From Aureliella helgolandensis (GTDB lineage Bacteria; Planctomycetota; Planctomycetia; Pirellulales; Pirellulaceae): a stretch of DNA of 64,000 nt. Below are positions 22,863-38,072 of the stretch, in pieces; position 1 is the first letter of the stretch; every line of letters starts with the position of its first letter. Location: contig NZ_CP036298.1 of the NCBI RefSeq assembly GCF_007752135.1, forward strand, positions 4,092,001 to 4,156,000, in the 5' to 3' direction. Under the pieces are notes generated by a model. It searched no databases and was not told the DNA's origin. It saw only the letters and a program-made list of their open reading frames with translations. Position numbers and translations under genes: made by a program.

Positions 22863-24356
22863 TCAGACCAGCAGCTCGGTTACGACACGCCCATGAACGT
22901 CAGTCAAACGAAACTCGCGTCCTTGGAAGCGGAATGTGAACCGCTCATGTTGAATTCCCAGAAGGTGCAAGAGAGTTGCATGCAAGTCATGCACACTGAC
23001 CGGATTTTCGACGACATTGACACTGTAGTCGTCGGTGGCGCCCCAAGTCATACCGGGGCGCATGCCGCCGCCGGCACACCACATTGTAAAGCAACTGGGG
23101 TGGTGATCGCGTCCATAGTTGTCGGCCTTGAGTACCCCTTGAGAGTAAATGGTACGGCCAAACTCACCTCCCCAAATGACCAACGTGTCGTCCAGCAGCC
23201 CACGTTGCTTGAGATCGATCAGTAGAGCGGCGGTTGCTTGGTCGGTATCCTTGCATTGGCGTCGCACCTGGTTTGGCAGGCTACCGTGGGAATCCCAGCC
23301 TTGGTGAAATAGCTGCACAAAGCGTACCCCACGTTCAATAAGGCGTCGTGCAACCAAGCAGTTGTAAGCGTATTTGCCTTGCTTCTGAACGTCAGGTCCA
23401 TACATCTTGAGCGTGGCGGCAGACTCTTGCGATAGGTCGAGCAGTTCAGGAACGGATGCCTGCATTTGGAAGGCCATTTCGTACTGAGCGATTCTGGTAG
23501 CGATGTCGGAGTGGGCCACTGTTTCTTGACGAATGCGATTGAGCTTCGCTAAACCATTGAGCATCTCACGACGTTGTGGGCGAGAGATGCCGGCGGGATC
23601 TTGGATGTCCAGTACCGGCTCTCCATTGTTGCGAAATTTAACTCCCTGGTACTGGGCTGGAAGAAATCCGCTTCCCCAGAGCCGGTCATAGAGGGGCTGC
23701 CCCGTTTTGCCGCTACCCTTGGAGCTCATCGCAACGAATGCCGGGAGTTCCGCGTTGAAGCTGCCGAGGCCGTAGGCGAGCCAAGCCCCGATGCTCGGCC
23801 GTCCAGGCAATTGCGAGCCTGTTTGTTGGAAAGTGATGGCAGGATCATGGTTGATTGCGTCGGTATGCATTGAACGAATCATGCACAGCTCGTCGACCTG
23901 AGTTGCCAAATGCGGCATGACTTCGCTCATCCACGTCCCGGAGTCTCCGTGTTGCGCAAACTTGAATAGACTGGGCGCGACTGGAAAGCTCGCTTGGGCT
24001 GACGACATGGTCGTTTTGCGGGCGGCGGGATAGATCGACTCCGGCACCTCTTCACCGAAGCGGGTCGCCAAATTGGGTTTGTAATCAAATAGATCCATCT
24101 GTGCCGGACCTCCCGATTGGAACAGGTAGATCACACGTTTCGCGCGCGGAGGATGATGGGGCAGTCCTAAGCCTGCGGCTGGAGGCAGTCCCAGCTCCGA
24201 ATGCTGGTCAGCTGCAGGCGTCCCATTCTCTGTCGCCAATACTTGCTGGGAGGGCTGCCCCAGGCGACTCAGTGATGCGAGGGCCAGGGAGCCGAGCAAC
24301 CAGGAGCGTCGATGGCAGAAAAGCGGGGGATTCGACTCATGCGAATTGTTCGTCAT
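22863..24356 (-). CDS. DUF1501 family exported protein
   Basis: A 497-residue protein of the DUF1501 family, structurally related to the alkaline-phosphatase/sulfatase fold and abundant in planctomycetes. The N-terminus has a twin-arginine-like signal (FCHRRSWLLGSLALASLSRLG), suggesting folded export. Family motifs are RVIYLFQSGGPAQMDLFDYKP, EVMPHLATQVDELCMIRSMH, INHDPA, RRLIERGVRFVQLFHQGWDSH, LLDDTLVIWGGEFGRT, GRDHHP and, near the end, HDLHATLLHLLGI. The catalytic role is not known. AAGGA upstream of the ATG at 24356 supports the start. The gene follows the DUF1553 gene with a five-base gap; this pair is a recurrent planctomycete unit. Confidence 0.93.
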   Translation of the reverse strand: MTNNSHESNPPLFCHRRSWLLGSLALASLSRLGQPSQQVLATENGTPAADQHSELGLPPAAGLGLPHHPPRAKRVIYLFQSGGPAQMDLFDYKPNLATRFGEEVPESIYPAARKTTMSSAQASFPVAPSLFKFAQHGDSGTWMSEVMPHLATQVDELCMIRSMHTDAINHDPAITFQQTGSQLPGRPSIGAWLAYGLGSFNAELPAFVAMSSKGSGKTGQPLYDRLWGSGFLPAQYQGVKFRNNGEPVLDIQDPAGISRPQRREMLNGLAKLNRIRQETVAHSDIATRIAQYEMAFQMQASVPELLDLSQESAATLKMYGPDVQKQGKYAYNCLVARRLIERGVRFVQLFHQGWDSHGSLPNQVRRQCKDTDQATAALLIDLKQRGLLDDTLVIWGGEFGRTIYSQGVLKADNYGRDHHPSCFTMWCAGGGMRPGMTWGATDDYSVNVVENPVSVHDLHATLLHLLGIQHERFTFRFQGREFRLTDVHGRVVTELLV

Positions 24357-24361
24357 CAAAC

Positions 24362-26782
24362 TCAATCCTTGTGAATGGCTTCGTCCAAGTTGAGCAGGAG
24401 CGATGCGATTAGGGTGATTGCAGCTTGTTCATGCCTTGGCTGTTGACACGCATTGGGAGATTCCCCATGTTCTAACAGCTGTTGTGCAGCTGCGGGATGT
24501 GAGGAAAAGTCTTCAACGGTGGAGGCATAGATCGACTCCAGCTCTCGTAGTTCCGCCGGGGAGGGGGGGCGACCGAGCACTTGCATGAACATCGCCCGCA
24601 TGCGACTAACGGGTGTGAGCTCTGCCTCGCGATCCACAAACGCGGCTAGGTTTCGCGCCGCTTCCATATAGGTCTTGTTGTTCAGTAAGGTTAATGCTTG
24701 CAGTGGAGTGTTGGTCGGATCGATCCGTACCGAGCAGACTTCCCGACCGGCAGCATTGAAGCTAACCATATCAGGCGGAGGAATCGTTCTGCGCCAGTAA
24801 GTGTACAAACTGCGACGGAAGAGATTGGCGCCCGAATCTTGTTTGTAGGTGTTATTGGAAATAGAGCTCCAGATTTTGGGTGGCATATAGGGCTTGACCG
24901 ACTCCCCACCCATCGAGTTGACGAGTAGACCACTGCTGGCAAGCGCTTGATCACGCAATTCGAAACCGGTGAGGCGTATTCGAGGTCCGCGGGCCCACCA
25001 GCGGTTGGTGGAATCTTGCTGGACCTGTTCGGGGCGAAGGGAGGAGGACTGTTGAAACGTGGCGCTCGTCACGATCAAACGCTGTAGATGTTGCAGATCC
25101 CAACCCGCTTCGATGAGCTCTACCGCTAGCCAGTCGAGCAATTGTGGATGGCTCGGCAAGCTGCCCTGGGTGCCGAGATTTTCGCTGCTTGTCACCAACC
25201 CGACACCGAAGAATTGCTGCCAAATGCGATTGACTGCAACTCGTGCCGTAAGCGGATTGCGGCGGTCCACCAGCCAGTCGACCAGTTCGAGACGATTGGA
25301 CGGTTGGTCTGCGCTGTCCCACTGTAGTGCGGTGGGCATTGCCGGAAACAATGGGTGTGATTTGTCGGGTGCATCGTAGACACCGCGTTCTAACCGATAG
25401 GTCGGTCGTGGTTCGGGCAGATCCTGCATGACCATAACGGTCCCTGGCTTACCGGCTTGCGGGCGCTGCAGGCCATTCCCCGCTTCCTTCCTAGCTGAAG
25501 TGAGACGCACCGGATCGGGAGTAAGGCGGTGATCTTCCGATTTGTTGATTAGTGGCCAGGTTGCGGGTAGTTGAATAAAGGGAGGACTGTTGCCATTGTT
25601 CGGCCCGACACCATGTTCGGCCACACTGTTGAAATAGGCGAAGATTTGATAATACTCACGGTGGGAAAGGGGGTCGTACTTGTGATCATGGCACCTGGCG
25701 CAACCAACCGTTAGGCCTAGAAAAACGGTGCCAAACGTGTCCGTCCTATCCACTACATTTTCAATACGCCATTCTTCCGCGATGGAACCATCTTCAGAAT
25801 TGATGCGATGATTACGGCAAAATCCTGATGCCACTTGTTGCCACAGCGTGGCGTTCGGTATTAAGTCTCCTGCCAATTGCTCGCGGATAAATTGGTCGTA
25901 CGGCATGTGTTCATTGAAAGCTTTCAAAACCCAATCACGCCAGGCAGATTGATAGCGGTAGCGATCATTCTGGTAACCGTCGGTGTCCGCATACCGGGCC
26001 GCTTCCAGCCACCCGAGAGCCATGTGCTCTCCGTAGCTCGGCGATTGAAAGAGTCGGTCCGTCGCTTCTCGAATGGCGGCCGAAAGCGATTCGTGCTGGC
26101 AAACCTCTAGGAAGGCCAGTGTTTCTTGGGTCGTGGGTGGTAATCCAGTTAAGTTGAAAGTCAGCCGTCGGAGCAACGCGTGGGGTTCCGCCACTGGCGC
26201 TTGAGACAACCCCGCTCTTTTCAGCCCCGCTACGATAAAGGAGTCAATTGGATTGTGACAAATGGGCTTCGGGGCGTTCGCTGAAGGGTCGGAAGGCTGT
26301 TTGGCAATGGAGGGTAGTGGAGGGCGTTCAATGAAGCGGAAGCTCCAGTGCCGCTGGTACTCCGCTCCGCTCGCCACCCATTCTCGCAACACCTGCTTCT
26401 GCTCATCTGACAACTGCTTGGTGCTCTCCGGCGGGGGCATTTGCTGAGCTGGATCTGCCGAATGGATTCGCTCGACCAGTGAGCTAACTCCCTTGGTTGA
26501 ATCACTCTTTAAGACATGGGCTGCTGACTGGGGCACATCGAGCCGCAAATCCGCCTCACGCGTGTTGGCATCCGGCCCATGGCAGGCAAAGCACTTGTCC
26601 GCCAATATGGGCAATACATCTTTCGCGTACTCCCACTCCACAGCGTGGGACTGCGCAGTGATCGTCATGCCGAGTAAACAACCTGCGATCCTACCGATGT
26701 TTCGAAACCGCGTTTGGGCAAAACGAAGGTGCCGCGAACTACGTCTTAGATGGGGAGGCAGCAGGTGAAACCAAGAAAACAT
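24362..26782 (-). CDS. DUF1549/DUF1553 protein with planctomycete-type cytochrome c domain
   Basis: An 806-residue exported protein. After a signal segment (IAGCLLGMTITAQSHA), residues about 50-150 are the planctomycete cytochrome c domain with DVLPILADKCFACHGPDA (haem site CFACH) and DPAQQMPPPES supplying a Met. DUF1549 follows (about 175-390: PIDSFIVAGLKRAGL, RRLTFNLTGLPPT, DTDGYQNDRYRYQSAWRDWV, GLTVGCARCHDHKYDP with a second CxxCH), then DUF1553 (about 510-790: FPAMPTALQWDSADQPSNRL, NRIWQQFFGVGLV, SPSPAELRELESIYA). The function of these proteins is unsettled. It is encoded with the DUF1501 gene in one transcript. ATG 26782 is the start. Confidence 0.92.
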   Translation of the reverse strand: MFSWFHLLPPHLRRSSRHLRFAQTRFRNIGRIAGCLLGMTITAQSHAVEWEYAKDVLPILADKCFACHGPDANTREADLRLDVPQSAAHVLKSDSTKGVSSLVERIHSADPAQQMPPPESTKQLSDEQKQVLREWVASGAEYQRHWSFRFIERPPLPSIAKQPSDPSANAPKPICHNPIDSFIVAGLKRAGLSQAPVAEPHALLRRLTFNLTGLPPTTQETLAFLEVCQHESLSAAIREATDRLFQSPSYGEHMALGWLEAARYADTDGYQNDRYRYQSAWRDWVLKAFNEHMPYDQFIREQLAGDLIPNATLWQQVASGFCRNHRINSEDGSIAEEWRIENVVDRTDTFGTVFLGLTVGCARCHDHKYDPLSHREYYQIFAYFNSVAEHGVGPNNGNSPPFIQLPATWPLINKSEDHRLTPDPVRLTSARKEAGNGLQRPQAGKPGTVMVMQDLPEPRPTYRLERGVYDAPDKSHPLFPAMPTALQWDSADQPSNRLELVDWLVDRRNPLTARVAVNRIWQQFFGVGLVTSSENLGTQGSLPSHPQLLDWLAVELIEAGWDLQHLQRLIVTSATFQQSSSLRPEQVQQDSTNRWWARGPRIRLTGFELRDQALASSGLLVNSMGGESVKPYMPPKIWSSISNNTYKQDSGANLFRRSLYTYWRRTIPPPDMVSFNAAGREVCSVRIDPTNTPLQALTLLNNKTYMEAARNLAAFVDREAELTPVSRMRAMFMQVLGRPPSPAELRELESIYASTVEDFSSHPAAAQQLLEHGESPNACQQPRHEQAAITLIASLLLNLDEAIHKD

Positions 26783-26970: not shown

Positions 26971-27481
26971 AGATCAGGAAGCGGCCTGTTCGTCTTCCAA
27001 CAAATTCCTCTCGCATTGAGAAATGAGCAAGTCGTTTGCCGGGTTTACTCAAATTGGGCACCGCGACGCCATTCTACCCCATCTGCTCTCTGCCCGTGCT
27101 AATTGCTCCGAGTCCCTCGCCAACGGAGCGTACGCCTTGACGGCACTCGCCACGCAGACAACCCCAAATGGGGCAAGTGAAAACGGGAGACGCGTTATCG
27201 CTATTGGGCAGGGCGAGGACAATAAATCGCTGCTGCCGGCCCGATCGAATATTGCCATCAGTGGCCGAGGCGCTGAGGCCAGATAGCGAGCTGGGGACAC
27301 TGCAATAGGTACGGCCTAGCGGGAGTGGGCATGGGCGGATTCCATGCTGGAGTCGATAACTCATGCTGGTCAGCATTAGCTATAATTTGAGTTAGAAACT
27401 ATCACCAAGCATTGCCGCGAAGTGTTTCGCGTTTGCGAGCAACGCGACCTCGTACACGCAGATTGCTGCAGGACAACTACT

Positions 27482-30400
27482 GTGCCCTCAAATCAAAATC
27501 TTTGCAAATGTTGGAAATCGATTGCCCCCATTTTTCTCCTTGCATTCTGTCAATTGGTGGGCCCTGTATGGCTGCTAGCAAGTAGTCCGGACCTGGCGGG
27601 TGCCGGAGAGAGACCGCACATTGTCTTTTTTCTGTCCGATGATCACACTTTGACCGATTCCTCTCTTTACGGTGCGAGCGATATTGCGACTCCCAACATG
27701 GAGCGCATCGCTACGGCTGGCATGACCTTCAGTCAAGCCTTTGTGATTTCCCCCTCTTGTGCGCCGAGCCGCGCAGCCTTGCTGACTGGCATGACACCAG
27801 CTCACAACGGAGCGGAAGCGAATCATTCCCGTCCCCACGCACGACTCAAAAAGTTTCCTGCGTATCTCCAAGAACAGGGCTATGAAGTCGTCGCGTTTGG
27901 CAAAGTGGGCCATTATGTGCAGACGCCTGAGTACGGGTTCGATCTCGCCAAGCATTTTACCTATCACGATGATGTCGCCGTAGCTGAAGCCGTGAAGTGG
28001 CTTGAAAATCGCCGCAACGACAAACCGCTTTGTCTATTTGTGGGTACCAATTGGCCTCATGTTCCCTGGCCCACCGCCACCGATGTTCCGTTGGACAGTG
28101 TGAAGATCCCCCAAAACCATGTCCGTACTCCAGAGACACGGCGAGCACGTGCTAAATACTACCAAGCGATCCAAATCATGGACGGTGAGCTGGGCAGTGT
28201 CTTCGATGCTGCCTATCGGAAGCTCGGTGAAAACACTCTGTTCATTCATAGCAGTGATCATGGTGCCCAGTGGCCGTTTGGCAAGTGGAATTTGTACGAT
28301 GCCGGGATTCGTACGCCGCTGGTGGCAACCTGGCCTGGGAAGATCGCAGCGGGTTCGAAGTCGGATGCTTTAGTCTCTTGGATCGATTTGCTCCCCACGG
28401 TGCTCGACGCGGTTGGCGCGGCGGTACCTGCGTCACTCGATGGGCAATCGATTCTACCGGTTCTCACTGGGCACAAGTCCAAGCATCGTAGCGAGATCTA
28501 CACCACGCATAGCGGCGATGGAAACTTCAATGTCTATCCAGCGCGCAGCGTTCGAGACGAACGGTTCAAGTACATTCGAAACCTGTATCCTGAATTTCAG
28601 TTCGATTCCCATGTAACGAAAGTCAGCAAAGAAGATGCATATTGGTCGAGTTGGGTTGAGAAGGCGCGCACGGTGCCTGCTGCAGCTCGCAAGGTGCGTC
28701 GGTATCAACAGCGTCCCGCCGAAGAGCTTTACGACCTCACGACCGATCCCGATGAGGAACACAATCTGGCTCAGCAGCCTGAGCAACTGGACCGCTTGCG
28801 ATCCATGCGCGAAAAACTCGACGTTTGGCTCCAGGAACAAGAGGATCGCCCAACCGTGTTTGGCATGCCAACACTGCTGCCCCAAGCAAGGACTCCACCC
28901 AATGTCATTACGGTGTTGATTGATGACATGGGGTGGCAGGATCTATCTTGTTTCGGTGGTCAAGATGTCGAGACCAAGCATCTTGACCGTTTAGCCGAGG
29001 AGGGACTGCGTTTCACCAATTTCTATGTGAATTCGCCGATCTGTTCCTCCTCACGCACGGCTCTAACCACCGGCAATTTTCCGGCGCGGCACCGCATTAC
29101 TTCCTATCTAGCCAGACGGGAGCTGAATGAGAGTCGCGGAATGGCACAATGGTTGGATGCAGGAGTTGCGACACTACCTCGGATGGTATCGGAAGCCGGT
29201 TATGCGACCGGGCATTTTGGAAAATGGCACATGGGTGGCCAACGCGATGTTGGTGACGCTCCACTGATTACTGAGTATGGTTTTGATGCTTCGCTTACCA
29301 ATTTCGAAGGCTTGGGACCTCGCATCCTGCCATTGTGCGATGCTTTCGACGGGACTGAGCCGAAGCGCCATGATCTGGGCAGCGCTAAACTCGGACGTGG
29401 ACCGATTGAATGGCAAGATCGCTCGACGATTACACAGCGTTTCGTCGATCGCGCGCTAGAATTTATCGACGAATCGGTCGCCCAGCAGCAACCGTTCTAC
29501 ATCAACGTTTGGCCCGACGACGTACACTCGCCATTCTTCCCCCCGCAAGCTCTTCGCGGAGATGGGGCAAAGCGGACACTGTATCTGGCCGTGTTGAAGA
29601 CCATGGATCAACAGTTGGGAGCTCTTTTCGATCGAGTTCGCAACGATCCACTATTGCGAGAAAACACTCTCATTGTGGTTGCCAGCGACAATGGCCACGA
29701 GCCGGGGGCCGGCAGCGGTGGGCCCTTGCGAGGGGAGAAGGGAAGTCTCTACGAAGGCGGCATCCGCAGTCCGTTAATCGTATGGGGCCCCGGCTTGGTG
29801 GAAGCTGCCGCGGCAGGCACTACCAACAACACGACTACTGCCTCCAGCGTAGATTTAGTCGCCTCTCTTATGAATTTGTGCCATGTGAAGACGCCCGTTG
29901 GCTACCAATGCGACGGTGAGGATCTGCTAGCTGCCTTGCTCGGTAAAACCAGTGCACAGCGCACTGGGCCGCTTTTCTGGAGGCGTCCGCCGGATCGGCC
30001 TGGAACCGCTAAGCATCCGGCTCCCGATCTAGCCATCCGAGATAAGCAATGGAAGCTCTTGTGTGATGTCGAAGGCCAGCACCCCCAGCTGTATGACCTT
30101 TCAACTGATGTCGCAGAGGCGGAGGATGTTTCTAAAGCTCATCCGCAGATTGTCAAACGGCTTACCAAAGCTGTGCTCGCCTGGAATGGAGCGCTGCCAG
30201 TAGACGGTGTGGGGGCCGCACAGCAGATTGGCGGATTGCCGCTGAGACAATTCATCAATCCCATTGCAGAAGGAGCGGATCCTAGCGTGGTATGGGATGG
30301 CGAACGCTATCTGTGGGCCACGAGTCATGGCAACCGTGCCGTTTCAGTCTGGTCCTCGCCCACGCTGACTAGTCTAGGGACCCAGCATTCGATCTGGCAG

Positions 30401-31807
30401 GCTCCCGAGAGTGGACCGTTCTCACAAGAGGTGTGGGCACCAGAGTTGTTGCGTATCGGGGATCGCTGGTATGTTTATGTGGCTGCCAGCGATGGAGAGA
30501 ATCGAAATCATTTGCAATACGTTCTCGAGTCGGAAACGAGCGATCCGTTGAGCAACTATACCCTGCATGGGCCACTCTACACGGGTGATGACTTCGATGC
30601 TCAGGAGAACAATATTTGGGCAATTGACATGACGGTTTTGCAGCAGCGCGACCAATTGTTCGCAATCTGGTCTGGCTGGTCCGACGCAACCAGCGATCGG
30701 CAACTGCTGTACATCGCACCCATGAAGTCTCCGACGGAGGTTGCCGGTCCACGCGTTCAATTGTGCAACCCCGATGACTTTCTGTGGGAACGCGTCGAGG
30801 AGACCGCAGCGTCACGAGGGCTGCACGAGGGGCCTCAAGTCCTGCAGCGAGCGGGAAGAACCTTTGTGGTGTATTCCTGCGGTGCTTCGTGGTTGCCGAC
30901 GTACAAGTTAGGAATGCTGGAACTAACCGGCGACAACCCACTGGATCCGGCGGATTGGCACAAGTTTCCCAAGCCTGTCTTTGAGAGCACGGATCGTACC
31001 TATGGAGTTGGACATGGCAGTTTCGTTCCCTCTCCCGATCAATCGCAATGGTGGCATGTCTACCATGCCAAACGAGACCGCGAGCCGGGGTGGCGGCGTG
31101 CGATTTTTGTGCAGCCGCTAGATTGGGATGAGCAGGGGCTCCCTCGGTTTGGAACGCCCGTGCCCTCGAACACGCCTTTGGCCATACCAGCGGGTACCCT
31201 TGTGCCACCGTTGAAGACGCAGCGCAAGATTGATTTTGGCAGTGCGACGGTCGCTGGACTGTTTGACACGTATGCCCATCACCAATTCGTGAGCTGGGAG
31301 GAAGGAGCGGGAGTGCATTTAGGGCGAGTGCCTGAGCAACCGGTGAACACCTATCGAGCGGGGGAAAAGCTGACTCTGCGTGTCGGAGTCTACAAGGATG
31401 TCGAGCTTACGGCCAAGTTTTCATTTGTTTCGGGCGACCGCGACGCGGGTGTCTTGTTCCGCGTCAGTGGTCCTTCCGTTGGCTATGACGCACAGCGAGG
31501 GTATTTCGCCGGACTGGTTCCCCGTCGTGGGACCGTCGTGCTAGGAAAGACCGATGGTGTCCGCTGGCATCACCTGGCCGACGCTCCCGTGGAAATTGAT
31601 TGGACGCAAGACCAGCAACTGCGCATACGCGCGCTCAAGAATCGAATCGAAATTTTCGTGAATGGTGCCACAGAACCAAGTCTGTCGGTGAATGATGGGA
31701 CCTACCCCACGGGCACGGTTGGCATTCGGGTAGTCGACACTCATGCCATTTTCAAATCTTTACAAGTGCTGCCGCGAAACCAAAAATCCTTGACCCCGCA
31801 ACAATAG
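27482..31807 (+). CDS. Fusion protein: sulfatase - sulfatase - GH43-like glycosidase - lectin-like domain
   Basis: A 1441-residue exported polypeptide. The GTG at 27482 has GCAGGA eight bases upstream and opens a signal peptide (IAPIFLLAFCQLVGPVWLL). Sulfatase 1 (about 44-455) has HIVFFLSDDH, SPSCAPSRAALLTG with formylglycine Cys 93, and GKVGHY. Sulfatase 2 (about 472-905) has VITVLIDDMGW, ICSSSRTALTTG with Cys 521, HFGKWHMGG and VASDNGHEP. A five-bladed GH43-like propeller follows (about 916-1235) with the three acidic residues expected in that family: Asp 933 (GADPSVVW), Asp 1049 (AIDMTV) and Glu 1116 (HEGPQVL). A beta-sandwich domain ends the protein. It should remove sulfate and cleave glycosidic links of a sulfated polysaccharide; the substrate is unknown. 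Confidence 0.9.
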   Translation: MPSNQNLCKCWKSIAPIFLLAFCQLVGPVWLLASSPDLAGAGERPHIVFFLSDDHTLTDSSLYGASDIATPNMERIATAGMTFSQAFVISPSCAPSRAALLTGMTPAHNGAEANHSRPHARLKKFPAYLQEQGYEVVAFGKVGHYVQTPEYGFDLAKHFTYHDDVAVAEAVKWLENRRNDKPLCLFVGTNWPHVPWPTATDVPLDSVKIPQNHVRTPETRRARAKYYQAIQIMDGELGSVFDAAYRKLGENTLFIHSSDHGAQWPFGKWNLYDAGIRTPLVATWPGKIAAGSKSDALVSWIDLLPTVLDAVGAAVPASLDGQSILPVLTGHKSKHRSEIYTTHSGDGNFNVYPARSVRDERFKYIRNLYPEFQFDSHVTKVSKEDAYWSSWVEKARTVPAAARKVRRYQQRPAEELYDLTTDPDEEHNLAQQPEQLDRLRSMREKLDVWLQEQEDRPTVFGMPTLLPQARTPPNVITVLIDDMGWQDLSCFGGQDVETKHLDRLAEEGLRFTNFYVNSPICSSSRTALTTGNFPARHRITSYLARRELNESRGMAQWLDAGVATLPRMVSEAGYATGHFGKWHMGGQRDVGDAPLITEYGFDASLTNFEGLGPRILPLCDAFDGTEPKRHDLGSAKLGRGPIEWQDRSTITQRFVDRALEFIDESVAQQQPFYINVWPDDVHSPFFPPQALRGDGAKRTLYLAVLKTMDQQLGALFDRVRNDPLLRENTLIVVASDNGHEPGAGSGGPLRGEKGSLYEGGIRSPLIVWGPGLVEAAAAGTTNNTTTASSVDLVASLMNLCHVKTPVGYQCDGEDLLAALLGKTSAQRTGPLFWRRPPDRPGTAKHPAPDLAIRDKQWKLLCDVEGQHPQLYDLSTDVAEAEDVSKAHPQIVKRLTKAVLAWNGALPVDGVGAAQQIGGLPLRQFINPIAEGADPSVVWDGERYLWATSHGNRAVSVWSSPTLTSLGTQHSIWQAPESGPFSQEVWAPELLRIGDRWYVYVAASDGENRNHLQYVLESETSDPLSNYTLHGPLYTGDDFDAQENNIWAIDMTVLQQRDQLFAIWSGWSDATSDRQLLYIAPMKSPTEVAGPRVQLCNPDDFLWERVEETAASRGLHEGPQVLQRAGRTFVVYSCGASWLPTYKLGMLELTGDNPLDPADWHKFPKPVFESTDRTYGVGHGSFVPSPDQSQWWHVYHAKRDREPGWRRAIFVQPLDWDEQGLPRFGTPVPSNTPLAIPAGTLVPPLKTQRKIDFGSATVAGLFDTYAHHQFVSWEEGAGVHLGRVPEQPVNTYRAGEKLTLRVGVYKDVELTAKFSFVSGDRDAGVLFRVSGPSVGYDAQRGYFAGLVPRRGTVVLGKTDGVRWHHLADAPVEIDWTQDQQLRIRALKNRIEIFVNGATEPSLSVNDGTYPTGTVGIRVVDTHAIFKSLQVLPRNQKSLTPQQ

Positions 31808-36052: not shown

Positions 36053-37123
36053 CTACACGTACGGATAGCTTGGATCAATTAAATGCAAATGTTTCATTTC
36101 CAGCCAAAATTCGCTGGGCACCTGGCTGTCTAAGGATTGAATATGAGATTCGACGCGATCCGCGCGACTGGAGCTGAGCGCAATGGAGCGAATGCTGGGA
36201 TGAGAACGGCCAAAAGCCACTCCAGCGTTGAAGGGCGAGATCTGGTGCGCTTCGCAACATTGTTGAAATTGTTCGCGCCACTTGAGCATTTGAGCATCGG
36301 CTGAGTCCTGGGGATCGACAGCGCGATAATTGAAAAATTCGCCGCCCAGCAGAAAGCCACCGTGAAAGAGGGCCGAATTGATGAGTGTCACCCCGCGTGC
36401 GGCGAGTGAGTGCATCAATTCGATCAAGGCGGGTGGGTGTTGCATGATCGTGAAGCTATTCGCAAACATGACCCAATCAAAATCGCAGTGCTCGGAAAGT
36501 TCGCGGATGGTTTGCCAGTTTTTAGCGCCCACGCCGGTGGCGAGCACTTGACCTGCATCGCGCAGCTCAATCAAGGCGCGGTAGGCGCCCAAAATGTCAT
36601 CCATTCGCCGCGAGCGATCGGTGCGATCTGTAGCCGCGGCAAGGTATTCATCGGGGTCATGGACGGAGACCAGTTGCGCAGAGAATTTACCGAGCAGCTG
36701 ATTCCCTTCCTCCCAACAGCGTAGAATCCCATCGTAGCTGATGTCTTGAACGGCATCGAATTTGAGATCAACCCAGGCGCCCGGTTCAAAGGTTGGTTCT
36801 GGAGTCACGAGTGGAGTCCGACGCCATCCCAGTTTATTACTAATGAAGACTTGATTCGGATCGGCTTCGAGTGCCTCGAGCTCTCGACCGATGACTTCCA
36901 GTGAGAGCCCCGCGCCGTACTTACCAGCGGTATCGATCACGACTGGCGAGAAGCCACTATCAATCCAGGCAGCCACGATGTCGTTTTTCTCTTCGTCATC
37001 AATCGCTCGAAACATATTGCCCAGGCTGGTAGCACCGAAGATCAACGGTGGCAGTTGCAGTTTCCCTTCGCGATTGAACCCTGGTCCCGAACGCGTGCGG
37101 TTGCTACCTGCTTGATCTGTCAT
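36053..37123 (-). CDS. Aldo/keto reductase, probable L-fucose (deoxysugar) dehydrogenase
   Basis: A 356-residue cytoplasmic aldo/keto reductase. The tetrad is visible: Asp in VVIDTAGKYG and Tyr in the same stretch, Lys in FISNKLGW and His in QLVSVHDPDEY. ATG 37123 has AAGGA six bases upstream and overlaps the stop of the lactonase gene by ATGA. The family includes the D-threo-aldose/L-fucose dehydrogenases, which oxidise L-fucose to L-fucono-1,5-lactone with NAD(P)+. The neighbouring amidohydrolase would then open the lactone. That pairing is why I favour a fucose or similar sugar. An alternative is an unrelated pyridoxal or galactose reductase. Confidence 0.87.
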   Translation of the reverse strand: MTDQAGSNRTRSGPGFNREGKLQLPPLIFGATSLGNMFRAIDDEEKNDIVAAWIDSGFSPVVIDTAGKYGAGLSLEVIGRELEALEADPNQVFISNKLGWRRTPLVTPEPTFEPGAWVDLKFDAVQDISYDGILRCWEEGNQLLGKFSAQLVSVHDPDEYLAAATDRTDRSRRMDDILGAYRALIELRDAGQVLATGVGAKNWQTIRELSEHCDFDWVMFANSFTIMQHPPALIELMHSLAARGVTLINSALFHGGFLLGGEFFNYRAVDPQDSADAQMLKWREQFQQCCEAHQISPFNAGVAFGRSHPSIRSIALSSSRADRVESHIQSLDSQVPSEFWLEMKHLHLIDPSYPYV

Positions 37124-37974
37124 GTTCCATCCTTTGGAGTTTCTAATTGCAAACCATAGGCTTTGATAGCGGAATCCGCCCAAAACCACTTCTGTTCTCC
37201 TGCGGACAGCCCCCCAGTCAATTCTTCGACTGCGGCAACCCACGCTTTATACTCGCTGCGCAGCAAGCAGACTGGCCAATCGCTACCGAACATTAGCCGT
37301 TCAGGGCCAAATGATTCGAGCGCTACATCCCAATAGGGCTGCAGGGTTTGAGCGGACCAACTCGCATCGCGAACCTCGGTCACCACACCGGAGAACTTGC
37401 AACTTACGTTGGGACGCAGGCTGAGCTCCTTGATATTGCGAGCCCAAGCCTGATCAAATTCGGATTCCCTTACGGTGGGTTTCGCAATGTGGTCCAAGAC
37501 AAAGACTTGGTTGGGGTGCTGGTCGACGAACGAAATTGCTTGGGGCAATTGTCGGGCATAGATCAGAAGGTCGTACACTAGACCGTAGGCGTTCAATTGT
37601 GCGATGCCACGCCCAAAATCTGCGTCGAGAAGGAAATCGTCGGGTTCATCCTGTACGACGTGTCGGACTCCTTTGAGCCAAGGCGACTGAACCAGCAGGT
37701 CGAGTTCATCGCAGACGCTCGGTCCGGCCAGTTCGACCCAGCCTACCACGCCGGCGATCATCTTGGAATCTTCGGCCAACCCTAGCAACCACTGGCTTTC
37801 AAGGATCGACTGACGGGCTTGTACGGTAATCGCAGCGGAGACACCGGAAGAGGCAACCGCAACTTCAAGGTCAGCGGCCGTGAAATCGCGTCGCAGGAGC
37901 GACATTTCGGAATTGATCCAGCCATACTGCTCCGCAGAGTAATCCCAAAGGTGATGATGGCTATCGATGCGCAC
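37120..37974 (-). CDS. Amidohydrolase family 2, probable L-fuconolactonase
   Basis: A 284-residue cytoplasmic hydrolase of the amidohydrolase 2 family. The GTG at 37974 gives the conserved start VRIDSHHHLWDY with the His-x-His metal site; the rest includes GVVGWVELAGP, LKGVRHVVQDEPDDFLL, VFVLDHIAKPTV, KFSGVVTEV and LMFGSDWPVCLL with the metal Asp. The order of these motifs matches L-fucono-1,5-lactonases, which convert fuconolactone to fuconate. The frame extends upstream to 38049 without family similarity. The stop overlaps the start of the aldo/keto reductase, showing that the two are a coupled pair. Downstream fuconate dehydratase is not seen here. Confidence 0.87.
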   Translation of the reverse strand: MRIDSHHHLWDYSAEQYGWINSEMSLLRRDFTAADLEVAVASSGVSAAITVQARQSILESQWLLGLAEDSKMIAGVVGWVELAGPSVCDELDLLVQSPWLKGVRHVVQDEPDDFLLDADFGRGIAQLNAYGLVYDLLIYARQLPQAISFVDQHPNQVFVLDHIAKPTVRESEFDQAWARNIKELSLRPNVSCKFSGVVTEVRDASWSAQTLQPYWDVALESFGPERLMFGSDWPVCLLRSEYKAWVAAVEELTGGLSAGEQKWFWADSAIKAYGLQLETPKDGT

Positions 37975-38072
37975 GGTCGTTCCCGAACAAAAGAGGTGGA
38001 ATTTGGAGAGGCGGCAACGTGAGGGGTGGGGCGATTGCGGGGGACACACGGCTTACCCGCGTTTGACGCCGA

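Follow-up and report, generated by a model that had tools for sequence, protein, structure and literature searches.

A fusion of two sulfatase domains with a GH43 glycosidase domain in Aureliella helgolandensis and its relatives in other genomes

Introduction

Degrading sulfated algal polysaccharides is difficult, and the targets of planctomycete sulfatases, which number 122 and 129 in two strains (PMC4807772), are mostly unassigned. Fusions of sulfatases with glycoside hydrolases (GHs) are already known: multidomain planctomycete sulfatases with glycosidase parts were reported in 2016 together with a two-sulfatase gene (PMC4807772), and sulfatase–GH fusions in Kiritimatiellales in 2019 (PMC6388578). 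The two domains of a GH78–S1_25 hybrid work one after the other on ulvan oligosaccharides (PMC8511951), and in the lambda-carrageenan cascade 2-O-desulfation must come before the exo-glycosidases (PMC12549532). Here and below, statements on published systems refer to the consulted parts of the papers cited. We describe a single open reading frame (ORF) of the planctomycete Aureliella helgolandensis in which two sulfatase domains, S1a and S1b, are followed by a GH43 domain and a CBM66-like tail. It is located in a stretch of 64,000 nt (contig NZ_CP036298.1, positions 4,092,001 to 4,156,000), called the window; coordinates and residue numbers refer to this window and to the fusion protein. In the open-licence literature searched, the hits of which were partly examined, neither the triple order nor its spread nor the tail was found described. 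A natural fusion of two sulfatases and a glycosidase tells which activities belong together.

Architecture, catalytic sites and nearest relatives

The frame is free of stops from either of two possible GTG starts to its end (Table 1), and Pfam together with profile search gives the order S1a–S1b–GH43–CBM66-like along the chain. In Pfam two Sulfatase stretches reach 302.6 bits in all (cut-off 25), GH43 over residues 926-1221 reaches 142 bits (cut-off 32.2), and the C-terminal PF06439 match over residues 1294-1429 has 32.2 bits (cut-off 26.8). A previous sequence-only reading of this DNA had described one frame with two sulfatases and a GH43-like glycosidase; the open frame and the above-threshold matches agree with it, the five motifs it quoted are all present in the translation, and its third segment is indeed GH43 by profile score, catalytic Asp/Asp/Glu and predicted fold. 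It had missed the C-terminal module, which a 22-row family profile matches (E 2.8e-13) to the levanase chains 4azz/4b1l/4b1m, presumably the CBM66 module of that enzyme. The N-terminus resembles a signal peptide, and the protein is probably secreted.

The catalytic residues of GH43 (Asp933, Asp1049 and Glu1116) are found in all 25 aligned rows and also align with those of the solved structure 9nxj. S1a possesses the motif CAPSR as well as Asp53, Asp54, Lys141, His144, His193, Asp259 and Lys268, the roles of its metal and substrate residues being assigned by analogy with residues named in PMC11760155. Of 88 S1a rows, 85 have a letter at the position of Cys93, and every one of them keeps the cysteine; Arg97 is present in 84 of 85. 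In S1b Cys521 and Arg525 occur in 58 of 58 rows.

Among solved structures S1_8A is the top match of S1a in profile search (210.8 bits; best other 5g2v, 192.1), and members of S1_8 are described as 2-O-sulfatases that unlock exo-glycosidases (PMC12549532). For S1b the top match is 9fo1 by single sequence and 7stt by profile, with S1_19 enzymes not far lower; the S1_16 family acts on 4- or 6-sulfate of Gal/GalNAc (PMC11760155). A fold search with a model of residues 42-1240 placed sulfamidase, 7stt, 9fo1 and S1_8A near the top of a list that does not indicate the matched domain. The family profile matches GH43 structures over the propeller with 9nxj as best hit, and in Foldseek GH43 aligns with 9nxj at a template modelling (TM) score of 0.85 by target length, a root mean square deviation of 2.3 and 30% identity. 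This structure belongs to AtAbf43C, an exo-1,5-alpha-L-arabinofuranosidase (PMC12493170); the nearest solved structures include the GH43_26 type, at only 30% identity. The GH43–tail model has a mean predicted local distance difference test (pLDDT) value of 89.9. For the three-domain model (residues 42-1240) the mean pLDDT is 83.7 and the predicted TM score 0.66; confidence is low ahead of GH43 and at three places inside it, and because of these stretches the domain arrangement is too unreliable to claim channelling.

Table 1. Features of the fusion ORF in window coordinates
Feature	Coordinates	Strand	Remarks
Four-module fusion ORF	27422..31807	+	start GTG 27422 or GTG 27482; 1461 or 1441 aa; stop at 31807
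Hydrophobic N-terminus, signal-peptide-like	27512..27604	+	residues ~11-41, judged by eye
S1a, first sulfatase domain	27605..28858	+	residues ~42-459; by sequence closest to S1_8
S1a formylglycine site, Cys93 of CAPSR	27758..27760	+	
S1b, second sulfatase domain	28892..30196	+	residues ~471-905; by sequence closest to 7stt and the S1_16 enzyme 9fo1
S1b CSSSR site, Cys521 to Arg525	29042..29056	+	Ser523 at the position of proline in 57/57 aligned relatives
Low-confidence stretch between S1b and GH43	30212..30238	+	residues 911-919 (model residues 870-878), pLDDT <50
GH43 five-bladed propeller	30257..31201	+	residues ~926-1240; catalytic Asp933, Asp1049, Glu1116
PF06439 / CBM66-like beta-sandwich	31361..31768	+	residues 1294-1429

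Recurrence in other genomes

A four-row fusion alignment was scanned against a named genome collection; of 281 relatives the best 80 loci were kept, so proportions among these best-scoring loci are not prevalences. S1a–S1b–GH43 occurs in one ORF in 19 of the 80, comprising 15 complete fusions (L082-L089, L094-L096, L105, L113, L136, L159) and four that end at a contig end (L091, L092, L093, L099). Together with the window and L041 this amounts to 21 distinct genomes, L088 being taken as the same as G023 and L136 as the same as G007. In a survey of 60 genomes (its own and relatives, at most nine candidates scored in each) the full order was present in one frame in at least four: G000, the genome of the window, and G007, G027 and G023. 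That separate genes were joined by an assembly or sequencing artefact is a practically negligible explanation, excluded because the same order stands in one ORF in these 21 genomes from many separate assemblies; G000 is moreover a single contig of 8.44 Mb. The search for the same domain order in other planctomycetes that the sequence-only reading had proposed thus succeeded, with phyla taken from record titles: the order recurs in records titled Planctomycetota and Verrucomicrobiota, including Rhodopirellula maiorica SM1, Rhodopirellula sp. JC639, Neorhodopirellula pilleata, Rubripirellula metagenome-assembled genomes (MAGs) and five MAGs whose titles give Verrucomicrobia at some rank (L089, L092, L095, L096, L099).

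The modules also occur in other combinations. S1a–S1b without GH43 is found in one ORF in 17 of the 80 loci, including L119 with a third sulfatase and L120 with GH2; three further loci (L102, L110, L116) are truncated and give no basis for judging the tail, and one (L118) appears frame-broken. In the other 40 loci S1a has no S1b relative in the same ORF, and eight of these (L115, L137, L138, L151, L152, L156, L158, L160) contain a separate S1b relative (at least 45% identity) within the locus. S1b–GH43–tail lacking S1a was met once (L068), GH43 plus tail as a stand-alone protein twice (L065, L066) and GH43 without detected tail once (L069). The view that such activities usually reside in separate genes holds in part: the stand-alone proteins and the eight loci with separate sulfatase genes speak for it, and the sulfatase–GH fusions already described (PMC4807772, PMC6388578) against it. 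Among six genomes with S1a–S1b only, five (G013, G032, G025, G128, G113) have no GH43–tail relative at E 0.001, and the sixth (G042) shows weak partial matches, the best (E 9.7e-15) over query positions 401-517 in the tail region. No GH43 remnant was found in 19 S1a–S1b loci (best E 0.85).

Several variants were observed besides. The ORF at L119:5797-9975 encodes 1392 aa with three sulfatase domains. At L047:7787-13150, in the genome of L120, S1a–S1b is joined to GH2 in place of GH43; the start of this fusion is overlapped by a relative of the DUF1501 gene of the window and a relative of the window's PSD1 gene precedes it. A 2991-aa ORF of a MAG titled Verrucomicrobiales (L089:1237-10212) contains a whole S1a–S1b–GH43–tail unit, ahead of which lie GH2, a TraB/GumN-family stretch (174 bits) and a cellulase-like stretch below cut-off. 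The S1a relative of Botrimarina colliarenosi (L081:8904-10337, also L124) consists of two ORFs separated by an in-frame TAG. In G000 there are 159 match stretches to the fusion protein, often several per gene; among the matches listed all except the fusion itself fall on the sulfatase parts.

Inheritance of the modules

S1a–S1b and GH43 were inherited jointly: in 20 fusions, some of them close kin, the distances of the sulfatase pair and of GH43 correlate with a Spearman coefficient of 0.914, and 0 of 2000 permutations gave a value as high. In a quick S1a–S1b tree of 43 rows the sister of the window is L090, a row without GH43; the two fall in a well-supported clade of ten rows, all tail-less except the window. 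At least six changes of the tail are required over 41 scored rows of this tree, L099 being counted with tail and L102 and L110 as unknown. A 29-row tree of GH43 places the window deepest among the fusion branches. Support for this is just 83/74, and the software cautioned that long branches meet close to the outgroup. The stand-alone proteins L065 and L066 and the S1b–GH43 protein L068 are interspersed among the fusions. We read this as an old four-module gene whose tail would have been lost repeatedly, also in the sister of the window. That the window regained its tail from an unsampled source is not the reading we prefer. The tail-less sister proteins represent natural variants for testing which activities belong together.

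Joint inheritance and the same order in 21 genomes also speak against the possibility that the fusion is one of convenience, in which neighbouring genes were joined through co-secretion for a broad diet and the modules hit different residues or polymers with no handover. In favour of it, sulfatase genes in these bacteria are commonly adjacent or fused (PMC4807772), S1a and S1b stand as separate genes within one locus in eight of the 80 loci, and the tail is frequently missing. Swapped partners, on the other hand, are rare in the set (GH2 and the third sulfatase mentioned above), and we consider such an origin rather unlikely.

Proposed function

We lean, with due reserve, towards a multimodular, probably secreted trimming enzyme for a sulfated polysaccharide or oligosaccharide. 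The CBM66-like tail would help to hold chain ends, S1a (S1_8-like and probably a 2-O-sulfatase) would strip a sulfate at the non-reducing end and S1b (S1_16/S1_19-like) one from another position there; an exo-type GH43 would then free the sugar exposed at the end, for which a pentose (alpha-L-arabinofuranose or beta-D-xylose) is the most likely candidate. Owing to its CSSSR motif, S1b may carry out its step slowly or not at all in the strain of the window. Consecutive steps are proposed because the GH78–S1_25 hybrid and the lambda-carrageenan cascade serve as precedents, and a pentose is favoured because of the likeness to GH43_26 and the S1_8 and 6hhm relatives. S1_8 includes an ulvan xylose-2-sulfatase, described as exo in PMC9096561 and as endolytic in PMC8360166, and Xyl-Rha3S derived from ulvan is also a substrate of GH43 xylosidases (PMC8360166).

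The 6hhm relative is encoded next to some fusions. One further sulfatase lies downstream of the fusion, with orthologs of 60-73% identity in L086, L087, L159 and L096; in L096, the title of which names another phylum, this copy is the first part of a sulfatase–GH43 fusion. The nearest structure of the L087 protein is 6hhm (E 1.2e-83), that is P18_S1_7, an ulvan xylose-2-sulfatase (PMC9096561). At E 1e-100 an ortholog is absent from three of 13 genomes (G013, G136, G106), and the matches in the others go down to 42%. Ulvan as substrate is a lead and not a result, because other fusions have other sulfatases downstream.

Several observations weigh against the trimming enzyme or against parts of it. 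The downstream sulfatase of L084 is just 27-29% identical to the group of four, that of L040 (G007) 24-25% with the arylsulfatase 7all as nearest structure, and in the genome of the window the ortholog (69%) sits 1.1 Mb from the fusion. The likeness of GH43 to GH43_26 hints at arabinose and the 6hhm relative at xylose (ulvan), two indications that are not separable here. The mode of the ulvan sulfatases is in conflict between reports, P32_S1_8 being exo and P18_S1_7 endo according to PMC9096561, with the S1_8 xylose sulfatase endolytic and S1_7 exolytic according to PMC8360166. Identity in the fold list is only 27% for S1_8A and 28% for 9fo1, and the matches of S1b do not discriminate between S1_16 and S1_19 relatives; because of this the sulfate positions are guesses. 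Many relatives retain S1a–S1b without GH43, and among the matches listed for 117 genomes from the order (five candidates scored each) the full order was found only in the window's own. Finally, S1b of the window reads CSSSR, in contrast to CSPSR in 57 of 57 aligned relatives, and this absence of the motif proline weakens the earlier interpretation of the fusion.

The formylglycine maturase reads a CxPxR motif, and maturation of S1b is doubtful because CSSSR lacks its proline. In the literature the sulfatase maturation motif is given as C/S-X-P-S/X-R (PMC4807772). In the strain of the window S1b may thus be dead or weakly matured, leaving a protein that acts as S1a plus GH43, which we regard as possible, if doubtful. 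Serine at the motif position is unique to the window among 216 sulfatase-like motifs retrieved from the fetched loci with a context-filtered pattern (P 208, T 4, A 3, S 1). The threonine and alanine seen at this position in other sulfatases argue for a functional S1b, as does the fact that all 12 further positions compared in S1b (metal and substrate residues, motif Cys and Arg) agree with the family. Identity to the sister L090 is 81% in S1b versus 82% in S1a, giving no sign of decay.

The trimming enzyme remains our preferred explanation. The fusion looks like a conserved trimming tool for some sulfated sugar chain, and it may plausibly be dedicated to a single polysaccharide. A bolder version, namely a conserved planctomycete–verrucomicrobial enzyme that would fully process one multiply sulfated terminal pentose by two position-specific exo-sulfatases and a pentosidase, is quite unlikely in our estimation; if true, there would be a widespread algal polysaccharide whose ends carry doubly sulfated pentoses and whose breakdown enzyme is so far undescribed. 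The assignment of the substrate is directly testable with one protein.

Gene neighbourhood

In 53 compared loci, which vary in length and in which the ORF filter can hide genes, no gene cluster besides the sulfatase cluster occurred in more than three. The neighbours in L096 and G007 fit a sulfated-polysaccharide pathway and do not name the polysaccharide: L096:912-15097 is a co-directional run of a galactokinase-like kinase, a sulfatase–GH2 protein, a sulfatase with a weak laminin-G-like match, the fusion and the sulfatase–GH43 protein, and in G007 the fusion is overlapped at its start by an aldose epimerase and at its end by a sulfatase. Close to the L040 fusion there is an XylR-like regulator, with which ORFs of L095 and L096 cluster; this is only a hint at a pentose.

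The sequence-only reading had suggested a link to fucose genes 5 kb away, and a fucoidan enzyme would follow from it. An aldo/keto reductase and an amidohydrolase at 36053-38049 of the window would, we presume, fit a sugar-lactone pathway; an amidohydrolase gene also abuts the L093 fusion, and MR_MLE-family genes precede that of L087. However, both genes of the window lie on the opposite strand from the fusion, and the amidohydrolases near two other fusions are just 26-37% identical to that of the window or to each other. No fucosidase family was met among the part of the neighbours sent to Pfam, and to our knowledge GH43 is not a fucosidase family. We consider the link highly improbable.

Divergent from the fusion, the window contains a gene pair of DUF1501 and PSCyt1/PSCyt2/PSD1 (22863-26782). 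Related pairs lie beside the L047 fusion and, in L070, close to an S1b gene; L101 has a DUF1501-like ORF.

Comparison with described systems

A close counterpart in design is P36 of Formosa agariphila (GH78–S1_25, PMC8511951). Like the fusion it carries a sulfatase and an exo-glycosidase on one chain, and, as proposed here, its sulfatase gives the glycosidase access to the non-reducing end. It differs in having one sulfatase, in its families S1_25 and GH78 and in its bacteroidotal origin, and no such tail is mentioned in the consulted parts of the paper. The planctomycetes P1 and P2 (PMC4807772) also possess two sulfatase domains in one gene, and GH43 hits within sulfatases are mentioned; the consulted text does not describe the triple order, its spread or the tail and does not allow one to tell whether these genes are identical with the S1a–S1b pair.

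As for the single modules, S1a has S1_8A as its closest solved relative in sequence; S1_8A, S1_8B and S1_8C (9bb9, 9bbd, 9bba; PMC12549532) of the lambda-carrageenan cascade are encoded by separate genes, in contrast to the fusion. AMOR_S1_16A (9fo1; PMC11760155), among the nearest solved relatives of S1b, is likewise a separate gene and has the motif CSPTR. The levanase binding module matches the C-terminal module by profile, in a different host enzyme. AtAbf43C (GH43_26; 9nxg, 9nxj; PMC12493170), the nearest solved GH43, shares the propeller and the catalytic triad with the fusion but bears CBM42 in place of the tail and has no sulfatase.

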